Program-made: the position numbers and the translations under genes | Notes under the pieces: model-generated | Database searches by the model: none | Told to the model about the DNA's origin: nothing | The model's input: only the letters and a program-made list of their open reading frames with translations | From: Elusimicrobia bacterium RIFOXYB2_FULL_49_7 | GTDB lineage: Bacteria > Fibrobacterota > OXYB2-FULL-49-7 | Length of the DNA stretch: 20,700 nucleotides | Direction: 5' to 3' | Assembly: GCA_001800515.1 (NCBI GenBank) | Contig: MGVN01000190.1 | Location: 1-20,700, forward strand | In this document: in pieces, positions 15,885-20,546 of the stretch | How positions within the stretch are numbered: the stretch's first letter is position 1 | Layout of the letters: each line of letters opens with the position of its first letter

Positions 15885-16073
15885 ATGGTCAATTGCCCCT
15901 CCTGCCAAAGCAGAAGAATTCATATCCTCGATAAAGGCCTCAAGAAAGTGGTGCGCTTTTTTCAGGGGAATAACCGTTTCGCCTGTCGCGATTGTGGGGC
16001 GACTTGGCGTGAGCGCGAACCGCACCTTCGCCTCAAACTCAAACGGAAACGACAGAACTGCGGCACGGTATGA
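15885..16073 (+). CDS. Small zinc ribbon protein leading the queuosine genes
   Basis: This is a 62-residue basic protein of unknown function. It has two C-x-x-C knuckles: C-P-S-C (C4, C7) and C-R-D-C (C34, C37), 26 residues apart, the layout of a zinc ribbon. F-A-C-R-D-C-G-A-T-W around the second pair resembles transposase-associated and ribosomal-type zinc ribbons. The end (residues 42-56) is rich in arginine and lysine, fitting nucleic acid binding. The frame is real rather than a shadow: its TGA overlaps the queE start by 4 bases (ATGA), it follows a candidate promoter, and the two knuckles are intact. It has no recognised role in queuosine synthesis; an RNA- or DNA-binding accessory or regulator is possible, but this is inference. 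Confidence 0.75.
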   Translation: MVNCPSCQSRRIHILDKGLKKVVRFFQGNNRFACRDCGATWREREPHLRLKLKRKRQNCGTV

Positions 16074-16711
16074 CTCTGCTCGTTTCCGAGATATTCAAGT
16101 CCATCCAGGGAGAATCGACGCACAGCGGGCGAATCTGCGCTTTTGTCCGGCTATCGGAGTGCAATTTGGCGTGTTCCTGGTGTGATACTCGATATGCCTG
16201 GACACAGGGTCGGGTGATGGCTTTAAATGCGATTGTTAAACAGGTATTGGCCTTCAAGACAAGGTTGATTGAGGTGACAGGCGGAGAACCCTTGCTTCAG
16301 GCCGGAACGCTTCCTCTTCTTCGGCGGCTCCTGAAGGAGAAAAAAAAGATTCTCCTTGAAACCAACGGTTCACTTTCCCTGGCGGGTGTTCCCAAAGGGG
16401 TGCATATTATCATGGATATCAAGACGCCTTCTTCCGGCGTGGTCATTCCCTATCTTCCCGCCAATCTCAGCTGGTTGAAGCCGAGTGATGAAATCAAGTT
16501 CGTGGTAGCGGATAATAAGGACCTCGCCTTTTCTGGGAAGTTTATTCGCCGGCACGGATTAGATAAAAAGCATACGGTTCTTCTCTCTCCGGTAGCGGGT
16601 CGACTATCTTTGGCACGGGTGGCGGCTTGGTGCTTAAAAAGCGGGTTGAATGTCCGACTGAACGTCCAACTTCACAAGATTCTCTGGCCAAAACAGACGC
16701 GCGGGGTCTGA
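16070..16711 (+). CDS. queE: 7-carboxy-7-deazaguanine synthase (radical SAM)
   Basis: QueE rearranges 6-carboxy-5,6,7,8-tetrahydropterin to 7-carboxy-7-deazaguanine, using S-adenosylmethionine and a [4Fe-4S] cluster. The 213-residue product starts with the family signature V-S-E-I-F-K-S-I-Q-G-E-S (5-16). It has the cluster motif C-N-L-A-C-S-W-C-D-T (C31, C35, C38; C-x3-C-x2-C), V-T-G-G-E-P for S-adenosylmethionine binding (about 69-74), and L-L-E-T-N-G-S. The D-I-K-T-P-S-S-G segment is also conserved in QueE. The ATG overlaps the zinc ribbon stop by 4 bases and the TGA overlaps the queC start by 1 base (TGATG), so the three genes are one translation unit. QueD is not in the window; FolE at 2509-3072 supplies the pathway's pterin precursor. 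Confidence 0.94.
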   Translation: MTLLVSEIFKSIQGESTHSGRICAFVRLSECNLACSWCDTRYAWTQGRVMALNAIVKQVLAFKTRLIEVTGGEPLLQAGTLPLLRRLLKEKKKILLETNGSLSLAGVPKGVHIIMDIKTPSSGVVIPYLPANLSWLKPSDEIKFVVADNKDLAFSGKFIRRHGLDKKHTVLLSPVAGRLSLARVAAWCLKSGLNVRLNVQLHKILWPKQTRGV

Positions 16712-17382
16712 TGACGAAACGGAAAGACAAGGCACTGGTTGTTTTTTCCGGTGGACAGGATTCGACCACATGTCTTTATTGGGCCATGCGCCGCTTTGGA
16801 CCGGAAAATGTCTCGGCCGTCACTTTTGATTATGGTCACCGCCATAAAATCGAGATACAAAGCGCTCAACGTATCGCCCGTTTGGCCGGTATTCCCCATC
16901 AGATTTTATCCATCAGCACCTTTCGTGAATTGGGCGGAAGCTCTCTTACTTCCGCTTTGGCCGTGAGTCATCGTCGCGGCCGACGAGGACTTCCCAATAC
17001 CTTTGTGCCTGGTCGTAATCTGATATTCCTTACTTTTGCAGCGGCGTATGCGTATCCTGCAGGCATTCGCCATCTTGTGGCCGGGGTTTGCCAGGCCGAT
17101 GTGGCCGGTTATCCGGATTGCCGACGGAATACCATACGGGCCCTTGAAAAGAGTCTTTGTCTTGGCATGGATTTTCCCTTCCGCATTCATACCCCCCTGA
17201 TTCGTTTAAGCAAGCCCGATACGGTTCGTTTGGCGGTCCGGCTGCAGGCCCTTCCTGCATTGGCTTTGAGTCATACCTGTTATAACGGCAAGCGGCCGCC
17301 TTGCGGAAAATGCATGGCTTGCCGTCTTCGCGCCGATGCTTTTGCCGAGGCGGGCATCCCGGACCCACTCCTGTCGCGATAA
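16711..17382 (+). CDS. queC: 7-cyano-7-deazaguanine synthase (preQ0 synthase)
   Basis: QueC uses ATP and ammonia to convert 7-carboxy-7-deazaguanine to preQ0. The 223-residue product has the PP-loop S-G-G-Q-D-S-T-T-C-L (13-22), F-D-Y-G-H-R-H-x-x-E, V-P-G-R-N-L-I-F-L and Y-P-D-C-R, all typical. The structural zinc site is intact: C190, C198, C201 and C204 in C-Y-N-G-K-R-P-P-C-G-K-C-M-A-C. ATG 16711 was chosen because it directly overlaps the queE stop and starts just before the first strand; an earlier in-frame start at 16627 would only add unrelated residues inside queE. It is the last gene of the cluster. lepA begins 41 bases later and may be transcribed from here. Confidence 0.94.
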   Translation: MTKRKDKALVVFSGGQDSTTCLYWAMRRFGPENVSAVTFDYGHRHKIEIQSAQRIARLAGIPHQILSISTFRELGGSSLTSALAVSHRRGRRGLPNTFVPGRNLIFLTFAAAYAYPAGIRHLVAGVCQADVAGYPDCRRNTIRALEKSLCLGMDFPFRIHTPLIRLSKPDTVRLAVRLQALPALALSHTCYNGKRPPCGKCMACRLRADAFAEAGIPDPLLSR

Positions 17383-17423: not shown

Positions 17424-19229
17424 ATGGAACAATCCCGAATCCGGAACTTCTGTATCATCGCCCACATCGATCACGGCAAATCCACCCTGGCGGATCGGCT
17501 GCTTGAAAAAACCGGTACCCTCGATCGTTATCAGATGATGGACCAGGTCCTTGATAATATGGATTTGGAACGTGAACGCGGCATCACCATTAAAGCGCAT
17601 GCCATCCGGATGGTATACAAGGCCAAAGACGGGATCGAATATGTGCTCAATCTCATCGATACGCCCGGCCATGTGGATTTCACGTACGAAGTGAGTCGCA
17701 GTCTTTCTGCCTGCGAAGGGGCTATCCTGGTGGTCGACGCCTCTCAAGGGGTTGAGGCGCAGACCTTGTCCAATCTCTATCTGGCGCTGGGCAACGACAT
17801 GACCATCATTCCGGTGCTGAATAAAATCGACCTCCCGTCTGCGGATGTCCCCAAAGCGGTGGAAGAGCTGAATAATCTGCTCGGAGGCGACATAGAGCCT
17901 CTGCTCATCAGTGCCAAGGACGGCACCGGAGTGGAGGCGGTATTGGAAGCGGTGGTGAAACAGGTGCCGCCGCCTAAAGGAAATCCTGATGCTCCATTAA
18001 AGGCGCTCATTTTTGATTCCGTATTCGATTCCTATCGCGGAGCCGTTGCTTTTGTCCGGGTGGTCGATGGTGTACTGAAACAGGGGAGCCTGCTTCGTTT
18101 CTTTGCCATTGACCAGCAATTCGGTGCGGATGAGGTGGGTCATCTCAAACTCAAGCGGGTCAAAGTGGATCGACTGGAGACCGGCGAGGTGGGTTATCTG
18201 ATCGCCAACATCAAGAGAGTGGCGGATATCAAGATAGGCGATACTGTGACCACGGCCAAAGAGGGAACCGCCGAGCCGCTTCCCGGTTACCAGGAAGTCA
18301 AGCCCATGGTGTATTGCGGGCTGTATCCTGAAAATCCGGATAATTATGATGATCTTCGCGATTCCCTGGATAAATTAGCCTTAAACGACTCCTCCATCAG
18401 TTGGGAACCCGAGACCTCCACGGCACTGGGTTTTGGTTTCCGCGCCGGTTTCTTGGGTCTGCTCCACATGGAAATCATCCAGGAACGGCTGGACAGAGAG
18501 TTTGGGGTGGATATCATCAATACGGTCCCGAACGTCAAATATCGGGTTCGACTGAGGGATGGTGCACAACTTTTTTTGGAAAATCCGAGCAAGTTGCCCG
18601 CCGTCAATCTGCTGGACTATTTGGAAGAACCTTATGTTATTGCCAAGATCATTGTTCCTACGGAGTATGTGGGCAACATGATGAAGCTGGGGGAGGAGAA
18701 GCGGGGCGTTTATATCAGCATGGAATATCTCGACCCCACACGGGTCAATATGCAATATGAATTCCCTCTGGCTGAAATCATTTTTGATTTCTTCGACCGC
18801 CTCAAGTCGTTGTCGCGCGGTTACGCCTCTTTTGATTATGAATTCAAGGAATACCGGCAGAGCGATCTCGTCAAACTCGATATTCTTATCAACGCCAATC
18901 CGGTGGACGCCTTTTCCATCATCATCCATCGCGACAAGGCGTATACCTGGGGCCAAAACCTGGCCACCCGCCTCAAGGATCTCATCCCGCGCCAGATGTT
19001 CGAGGTCGTCATCCAGGCGGCCATCGGATCGCGCGTCATCAGCCGTACCGTGGTGAAACCGCTCCGCAAGAATGTGACGGCCAAGTGCTACGGCGGAGAT
19101 ATTTCACGCAAACGCAAACTCCTCGAAAAGCAGAAAGAGGGAAAAAAGCGGATGAAACAGGTGGGTCAGGTGGAGATACCGCAGGAGGCCTTTTTTGCGG
19201 TTCTCTCCATGAACCAGGAAGCGGGGTAA
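17424..19229 (+). CDS. lepA: Elongation factor 4 (LepA), translational GTPase
   Basis: LepA is a ribosome-associated GTPase that acts in initiation and translocation under stress. The 601-residue product aligns over the full family length. The G motifs are A-H-I-D-H-G-K-S-T (13-21), [13 protein letters not shown] and N-K-I-D; the EF-G-like domains follow. The LepA-specific C-terminal region is intact, including [34 protein letters not shown] and the [11 protein letters not shown] segment. There is no Shine-Dalgarno sequence before the ATG; the 41-base gap after queC is AT-rich. The signal peptidase homologue begins at the base after the stop, the usual lepA-lepB order. Confidence 0.97.
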
Positions 19230-20204
19230 ATGGACCGTTTTCGCGAAATTACGGAACAAACCCGCCATGTCAAGGACCTCCGGCTTGTGCTTTATGAGGT
19301 GGTTGAAGTCGGTATGGCGGTCCTTTTTTTCGCCCTATTGACCCGTCTTTTTTTCTTTCAGGCTTTTACGGTACCCTCCCCGGCCATGGAGGGAACCCTG
19401 TTGCCGGGAGACCGCTTTTTCGCCAATCGGCTCGTGTATGGTCTTAAACTTCCCTTTTCCGATAAGATTCTCCTCCGTTTCAAGCGACCCCGTATGGGCG
19501 AGGTGGCTGTTTTCCGAGACCCGGGTTTGATGGGTCGCTTGTCGGTGCGCCGCTGTATCGCCGGCCCGGGTCAGACCGTGCACTTGACCGATAAAAAGGT
19601 CTTTGTGGATGGCGCGGAATTCCGTTTTCCCGCTACCGCTCGTTCCGGGGGGACCGTTTCCATTGAAGAACGTTTCTCTCCCCGCGACACCTTTCATCCT
19701 TTCCGCATCCCGCAGCCGGGGGAACGCATCCGGATTGATACGTTGCCGCTTCGGGAATTTGATTTTTTATCCTCACTTATCCGCCAGGAAAACCCGGAAA
19801 GCCGTTTTACCATAACAGCGGATCTGATGAAAGGGAACCTTCCTTGTGATCTGCCCGATTTAGCCGACCTTCGGATGGATCTCCTGCAACAGGATAGTTT
19901 GCCGAGTTTGGACCGTATGAATTGGATCCAGTTGTCCAATGTTCTCAACTTCCTGACCTCCCGCGGAGATTCAGCCGTTTATTCAATCCGCCGGGTACTT
20001 TACCGTGACGGCGTGCAGGTGAAGGAGTATCCGGTTCGGCGGCGTCATTTCTTTTTTATGGGCGACAACTGGGATGACAGTGAAGACAGCCGTTTTACCG
20101 GTCTTATCATGGAGGACTTGATTGTTGCGCGGGCCTCTTTTACCTATTGGTCCGCATCGCCGCAGGGAGGACTTCGCTGGTCTCGTCTTTTTCTTTTTCT
20201 CTGA
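19230..20204 (+). CDS. Signal peptidase I (LepB) homologue lacking the catalytic serine and lysine
   Basis: This is a 324-residue membrane-anchored protein with one clear transmembrane segment (about 24-46) and a large domain expected outside the inner membrane. The S26 boxes are recognisable. Box B is V-P-S-P-A-M-E-G-T-L-L-P-G-D (48-61), box D is S-V-R-R-C-I-A-G-P-G (105-114) and box E is F-M-G-D-N-W-D-D-S-E-D-S-R (276-288). In active enzymes box B reads S-x-S-M with the second serine as nucleophile, and box D reads Y-x-K-R-x-x-G-x-P-G-D with the lysine as base. Here the nucleophile is Ala52 (codon gcc) and the base is Arg107 (cgc). Box E, needed for the fold, is intact. About 150 residues are inserted between boxes D and E, as in FCB-type LepB. 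It follows lepA directly, where active lepB usually sits. It is probably an inactive paralogue. Confidence 0.82.
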   Translation: MDRFREITEQTRHVKDLRLVLYEVVEVGMAVLFFALLTRLFFFQAFTVPSPAMEGTLLPGDRFFANRLVYGLKLPFSDKILLRFKRPRMGEVAVFRDPGLMGRLSVRRCIAGPGQTVHLTDKKVFVDGAEFRFPATARSGGTVSIEERFSPRDTFHPFRIPQPGERIRIDTLPLREFDFLSSLIRQENPESRFTITADLMKGNLPCDLPDLADLRMDLLQQDSLPSLDRMNWIQLSNVLNFLTSRGDSAVYSIRRVLYRDGVQVKEYPVRRRHFFFMGDNWDDSEDSRFTGLIMEDLIVARASFTYWSASPQGGLRWSRLFLFL

Positions 20205-20252: not shown

Positions 20253-20546
20253 ATGGGAAAACTGAAGATAACCAAGAGCCGGACAGGTATTGAAGAACAC
20301 CGGCGTACAATCGATCGCCTGAATCGGGCCCTGCTGACCCTGCTGAATCGCCGTGTGAAAGCAGCCTGTCGCATTGGGGCCATCAAGAAGCAACAGGGAT
20401 TACCGATTTCCGATCTTTCCCGTGAAAAAGCCATTATGGCGGCATTATGCGCCGATAATCCGGGACCGCTTGATACTATCGCGATCCATGCCATTTTCAG
20501 GACCATTATCCGGCATACCAAACGGTTGGAAAGGAAACTCAGTTGA
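20253..20546 (+). CDS. aroQ: Chorismate mutase, AroQ type
   Basis: This 97-residue all-helical protein converts chorismate to prephenate, the branch to phenylalanine and tyrosine. It matches the AroQ-alpha fold. The first helix has H-R-R-T-I-D-R-L-N-R-A-L-L-T-L-L-N-R-R, giving the shared-subunit arginine and the second arginine. I-G-A-I-K-K provides the lysine, and I-S-D-L-S-R-E-K the aspartate, arginine and glutamate. N-P-G-P-L and I-F-R-T-I-I form the last helix, where glutamate replaces the E. coli Gln88, as in other family members. The active site appears complete. No ribosome site is visible; the 48-base gap after the LepB homologue is AT-rich. Its TGA overlaps the TTG start of the AroA-like gene, so translation is coupled. 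Confidence 0.9.
   Translation: MGKLKITKSRTGIEEHRRTIDRLNRALLTLLNRRVKAACRIGAIKKQQGLPISDLSREKAIMAALCADNPGPLDTIAIHAIFRTIIRHTKRLERKLS

Follow-up and report, generated by a model that had tools for sequence, protein, structure and literature searches.

We analysed a 20,700-nucleotide stretch of contig MGVN01000190.1 (hereafter the window) from Elusimicrobia bacterium RIFOXYB2_FULL_49_7, a genome that GTDB places in the Fibrobacterota. Our subject is a gene in it that encodes a type I signal peptidase homologue in which both residues of the catalytic Ser-Lys dyad are replaced. The gene begins with an ATG directly after the lepA stop codon (19227-19229), and a sequence-only reading of the window had already proposed that it is a LepB homologue adjoining lepA. 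Its features are collected in Table 1.

Table 1. Positions of the signal peptidase homologue, its features and its neighbours in the window
Feature	Positions	Strand	Evidence
lepA (EF4); stop codon immediately precedes the ATG of the next gene, for the signal peptidase homologue	17424..19229	+	
Type I signal peptidase homologue without the dyad; 324 amino acids, complete open reading frame	19230..20204	+	PF10502, TIGR02227
Hydrophobic helix near the N terminus, residues 17-41; presumably the sole membrane anchor	19278..19352	+	AlphaFold2 model helix
Box B, P-S-P-A-M-E-G-T, residues 49-56	19374..19397	+	
Ala52 codon (gcc), position of the nucleophilic Ser	19383..19385	+	
Box D, S-V-R-R-C-I, residues 105-110	19542..19559	+	
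Arg107 codon (cgc), position of the general-base Lys	19548..19550	+	
Box D-E domain, residues 155-268; two strand-helix-strand units, QENP at residues 186-189	19692..20033	+	AlphaFold2 model
Box E, GDNWDDSEDSR, residues 278-288	20061..20093	+	
Trp281, clade-specific, replaces the box E Arg	20070..20072	+	Trp in 10/10 full-length clade members
Chorismate mutase domain gene, downstream of the signal peptidase homologue	20253..20546	+	PF01817, 71.7 bits

The catalytic positions of the window protein

Membership of the S26A type I signal peptidases is clear: the protein scored 98 bits against PF10502 (cut-off 22.9) and 99.9 bits against TIGR02227 (cut-off 47), an equivalog model for signal peptidase I. 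The latter score is about twice the cut-off, so an annotation pipeline that relies on such models would label this protein an active signal peptidase. Both models were also matched by all ten full-length members of the clade described below; bit-score cut-offs were compared for the window protein alone and the other members were judged by E-value. The protein has the LexA/signal peptidase fold and, with its dyad replaced, belongs with non-catalytic homologues such as SipA of Streptococcus pyogenes.

When phmmer aligns the protein to E. coli LepB, PSPAM falls opposite PSGSM and SVRRC opposite YIKRA. Ala52 thus stands at Ser90 and Arg107 at Lys145 (LepB numbers as given in a table of PMC12984324, seen in excerpt), and the protein has neither a Ser before the box B Met nor the Lys of box D. 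The sequence-only reading had placed both replacements, with their codons, correctly. It had also called box E intact; the spaced motif does fit, but it hides the fact that the Arg of the usual GDNRD is Trp281. According to the same excerpt of PMC12984324, an Arg is also described at the base position of the phage 186 CI repressor, a member of the same superfamily.

Could the window carry an ordinary LepB altered by a sequencing or assembly error? A near-identical record of 204 amino acids from another source, P0002, has the same Ala/Arg pair and differs from the window protein at residue 142. Arg is also present in P0003, the nearest full-length relative (52% identity), which belongs to the sister subclade. 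CGC differs from either Lys codon (AAA or AAG) at three bases; the earlier count of “at least two” was therefore too low, while its conclusion that a single sequencing error does not account for the Arg holds. The same reading had taken an ordinary box B and K-R in close relatives as a sign of misassembly. This sign is half present: relatives at 41-46% identity keep S-M and K-R, with Gly for the first Ser of box B. The losses are nevertheless found in another record and in lineages apart from one another, so that such an error does not explain the missing dyad, and we regard it as scarcely credible.

Dyad states among relatives and their history

A search with the single protein returned 21 matches and a search with a three-row alignment returned 367, of which the best 120 were examined. 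From the matches listed we built an alignment of 80 rows, comprising 13 clade rows (the window protein included) and 67 others, and checked the dyad in 59 further listed relatives. Besides P0002, 12 of the listed relatives (P0003, P0004 and P0024-P0033) fall in the same clade as the window protein; the two that carry names, P0025 and P0029, are both Fibrobacterota. P0033, a fragment without boxes B and D, was dropped from the counts.

Within this clade the dyad takes many forms. Two of the 13 rows have Ala/Arg, two Ser/Arg, two Gly/Arg, one Gly/Lys, one Val/Leu and four Ser/Lys; the remaining row is a fragment that shows only the Lys. Outside the clade, Ser/Lys was found in all 125 listed relatives examined (67/67 in the alignment and 58 further). 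Thus, among the matches listed, at least one dyad residue is lost in 8 of 13 clade rows and in none of 125 outside. The idea that relatives might carry the same Ala/Arg pair is borne out by P0002 alone; the others vary, and four keep Ser/Lys. Because of these four, the clade spans a range from members that may be active to members that lack the dyad.

To trace the losses we used a tree of 31 rows from which the dyad columns and column 50 had been excluded. The clade forms one side of a branch with 100/100 support, and the tree requires four changes in the Ser column and three in the Lys column. The window protein and P0002 are sister to P0032 and P0003, both Ser/Arg (support 100/99), which indicates that the Lys was lost first in the window’s subclade. 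On the other hand, P0029 (Gly/Lys) pairs with P0028 (Ser/Lys) at 100/100 support, so there the Ser was lost first. Three deep forks within the clade have bootstrap values of 60-65.

Topology tests, for groups named after the tree was seen, limit the number of events. A single clade of all Ser-lost rows was rejected (p 2e-53); with P0029 left out, the single clade was rejected only at p 0.03. A single clade of all Arg rows was not rejected (p 0.43 in the approximately unbiased test). The window’s subclade and P0025/P0026 may therefore share one origin of the Arg, in which case the Lys was lost in two events and not three. The safe statement is that there were at least three losses of the Ser and at least two of the Lys, if regain is ruled out.

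Linkage to lepA appears to extend beyond the window. For six of the 12 clade relatives, the longest contig matches, in bases and source tags, a contig bearing a close LepA (9068, 16878, 113716, 9787, 4075 and 2504 bases); these six are apparently lepA-linked, the linkage being taken from the contig match and not from gene order or strand. Of the other six, four come from contigs (667-2010 bases) that could not contain both genes whole, and for P0028 (30624 bases) and P0030 (67152 bases) no matching LepA contig was found among the 120 LepA matches listed. For LepA of the window itself, the named close matches include Fibrobacterota (P0146, 77%; P0147, 75%; best 120 of 7998).

Further searches extended little beyond this set. 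Of 97 pattern matches in viral contigs none was confirmed as a relative, and ten plasmid records had coverage of at most 68% and identity below 40%. A scan of genome contigs with the single protein, for which the alignment is the better query, gave one locus, L001, in a Lachnospiraceae record (38% over 48 residues).

Conservation, wear and the probable role of the protein

All ten full-length clade members have 323-324 residues and share 53 invariant columns, 25 of which fall within the 152 columns that separate boxes D and E. The 43 columns that are at least 95% conserved outside the clade have fared unevenly within it: 18 are invariant, each dyad column is retained in 5/10 members, and D104, R281 and W290 are retained in none. 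Box E reads GDNWD or SDNWD in all ten as compared to GDNRD elsewhere, residue 281 being Trp in 10/10 clade members and 0/67 outside, where it is Arg in 67/67. Since the Ser/Lys members share this Trp, it suggests a change of job that preceded the loss of catalysis. Four further residues, M230, N237, N240 and F241, do not vary within the clade and occur in 0-2 of the 67 outside rows.

The box D-E domain contains a QENP motif that is invariant in the ten full-length members; each of its residues also occurs in 22-24 of the 24 long-form relatives beyond the clade. We also considered an internal duplication of this domain, with its two modelled strand-helix-strand units, and rejected it: an hhalign comparison of the halves gave a P of 0.34, which did not stand out from the controls (4 control segments and 30 column-shuffled). 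Ahead of the catalytic boxes, the N-terminal helix presumably acts as the membrane anchor; its modelled confidence (mean predicted local distance difference test) was 70 for residues 11-20, 95 for residues 21-30 and 92 for residues 31-40.

Taken with the repeated loss of the dyad in a clade that keeps much else, these data make it well supported, as judged from sequence, that the window protein is a non-cleaving LepB homologue, as had been suggested before. We consider it somewhat probable that it is a membrane-anchored, outward-facing protein of the signal peptidase fold, kept for that fold, its peptide groove and the box D-E domain. By analogy with S. pyogenes SipA, its role may be binding or chaperone-like. 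Anchored in the inner membrane, the protein would bind on the outer face. There, at the exit of Sec, it could grip signal peptides, or other segments of proteins bound for export or for the membrane, and leave them uncut. Its function might then be in assembly or quality control, or it might work alongside a second, active LepB, which the sequence-only reading had predicted at another place in the genome.

As to how this came about, we propose tentatively, at a little under an even chance, that an ancestral change of job in the lepA-linked Fibrobacterota signal peptidase (the Trp in GDNRD and the box D-E residues) made cleavage unnecessary. At least three parallel losses of the catalytic Ser would have followed, the Ser/Lys members would be living intermediates, and the protein would act in export in Gram-negative bacteria as a conserved factor without proteolytic activity.

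Several observations weigh against a non-cleaving protein that is kept for its fold and groove. The four clade members with Ser/Lys may cleave. D104 (64/67 outside) and W290 (66/67 outside) are gone in all ten members, so binding may differ from that of a signal peptidase. Foldseek with the whole model gave weak scores (template modelling score 0.38 by query, root-mean-square deviation 16.8 for the first row), which we attribute to box D-E domains that differ from that of E. coli. A further point is rate, which we compared on seven lepA-paired contigs. The window protein is 41-48% identical to the five relatives outside its subclade, with LepAs 72-77% identical. For P0032, a fragment and the sister of the window protein, identity to these five is 37-47% (LepA 73-78%); the two sisters are 52% identical to one another (LepA 83%). 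Among the five themselves, the ten pairs are 49-68% identical (LepA 72-87%): nine at 49-55% and the tenth at 68%, with LepA at 87%. P0025, which has lost both dyad residues, is slightly below the others at 48.6-52.3%. The lower identities indicate faster evolution in the window’s subclade, a sign of relaxation or change, and relaxed constraint would equally yield a fast window branch. P0032 also has an out-of-register tail after residue 178 (residues 178-191), known from the protein alone, which reflects either a frame break or an error at the end of its 2504-base contig.

One explanation of this wear is that the lepA-linked gene is a redundant LepB copy in decay, another signal peptidase having taken over while this copy drifts, kept by its place in the operon. 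Dyad losses in both orders, the faster subclade, the tail of P0032 and the loss of the box E Gly and Ser in P0030 are all in keeping with decay. The constant length and the 53 invariant columns are not, although open frames alone prove little for ten members chosen for full length. In addition, the losses recur where LepAs are only 72-83% identical to that of the window, and the gene is still there. We therefore consider decay unlikely.

Another possibility is that the protein is a non-catalytic subunit that guides the selection of substrates in association with an active LepB or the Sec machinery, which it would contact through its box D-E domain and Trp281. The clade-wide changes beyond the dyad (W281, M230, N237, N240 and F241) would suit such a surface, but no partner gene was recognised within the window; we rate this account as rather improbable.

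Lastly, the protein might still be a peptidase with a different nucleophile, be it Ser50 or some other residue. The window protein, P0003 and P0032 do have Ser50, but 8 of the 10 full-length members have Gly at this position. Furthermore, the 24 columns that are invariant in the clade and held by a minority outside include one Ser (S150) and no Lys, His or Cys, as far as sequence columns can tell, and Arg is a poor general base. Retained peptidase activity is thus very improbable.

Known relatives of the signal peptidase fold and the neighbouring genes

Pseudo-signal-peptidases are already known from Gram-positive bacteria; what is new here is the repeated loss of the dyad in a lepA-linked Gram-negative clade. 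According to excerpts of PMC4049620, SipA of S. pyogenes carries Asp/Gly in place of the dyad, shows no detectable peptidase activity and retains a peptide cleft; it is essential for pilus polymerisation, and the authors propose that it binds a key cell-surface component. SipA (signal peptidase I fold, PDB 4n31) differs from the window protein in its dyad residues (Asp/Gly as compared to Ala/Arg), in its Gram-positive host and its service in pilus assembly, and in size: its solved chains of 135-142 residues leave no space for a large box D-E domain, which the window protein has. The sipA gene lies among sortase and pilin genes; this setting is not found in the window, where the neighbours are lepA and the chorismate mutase domain gene. 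The box E of SipA reads NDYREERLD (PMC12984324, in excerpt).

Staphylococcus aureus SpsA is described, in the part of PMC12445088 seen, as a signal peptidase I homologue without two conserved catalytic residues that is dispensable and accompanies the active SpsB. It resembles the window protein in lacking the two residues and differs in its Gram-positive host. E. coli LepB, on the other hand, has the active Ser90-Lys145 pair, GDNRD and a different domain II, where the window protein has Ala/Arg and GDNWD; it also has two membrane helices to the single one of the window protein. The 24 long-form LepB rows share the QENP-bearing box D-E domain with the window clade but, unlike it, have Ser/Lys and GDNRD in 24/24. 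Two of them, P0036 and P0064, are named Chitinivibrionales, which we take to be the Fibrobacterota class Chitinivibrionia. In the open-licence literature we found, among the papers listed and judging by title or by title and opening of the abstract, no work on an inactive signal peptidase in Fibrobacterota or Fibrobacter; subscription journals, such as those with work on SpsA, lay outside this scope.

Signal peptidase I is a drug target. It is also normally an essential enzyme (PMC4049620, in excerpt). The clade described here holds members with both, one or neither of the dyad residues at what is apparently one locus, and this natural series bears on how an enzyme turns into a binding protein and on what a signal peptidase fold does when it does not cut.

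The GC fractions of the gene by codon position (0.60, 0.42 and 0.58) resemble those measured for five other window genes. Scanning the window against Rfam and for tRNAs gave no matches. Upstream of lepA, genes for a radical SAM (QueE-like) protein and QueC are adjacent at 16070-17382. Directly before them, on the forward strand at 15885-16073, is a small open reading frame of 62 amino acids with C-x2-C pairs, perhaps a zinc-ribbon protein, whose Pfam matches were all below threshold. The program-made reading frames of the QueE-like gene and queC overlap at 16627-16711, and queC therefore probably starts later.
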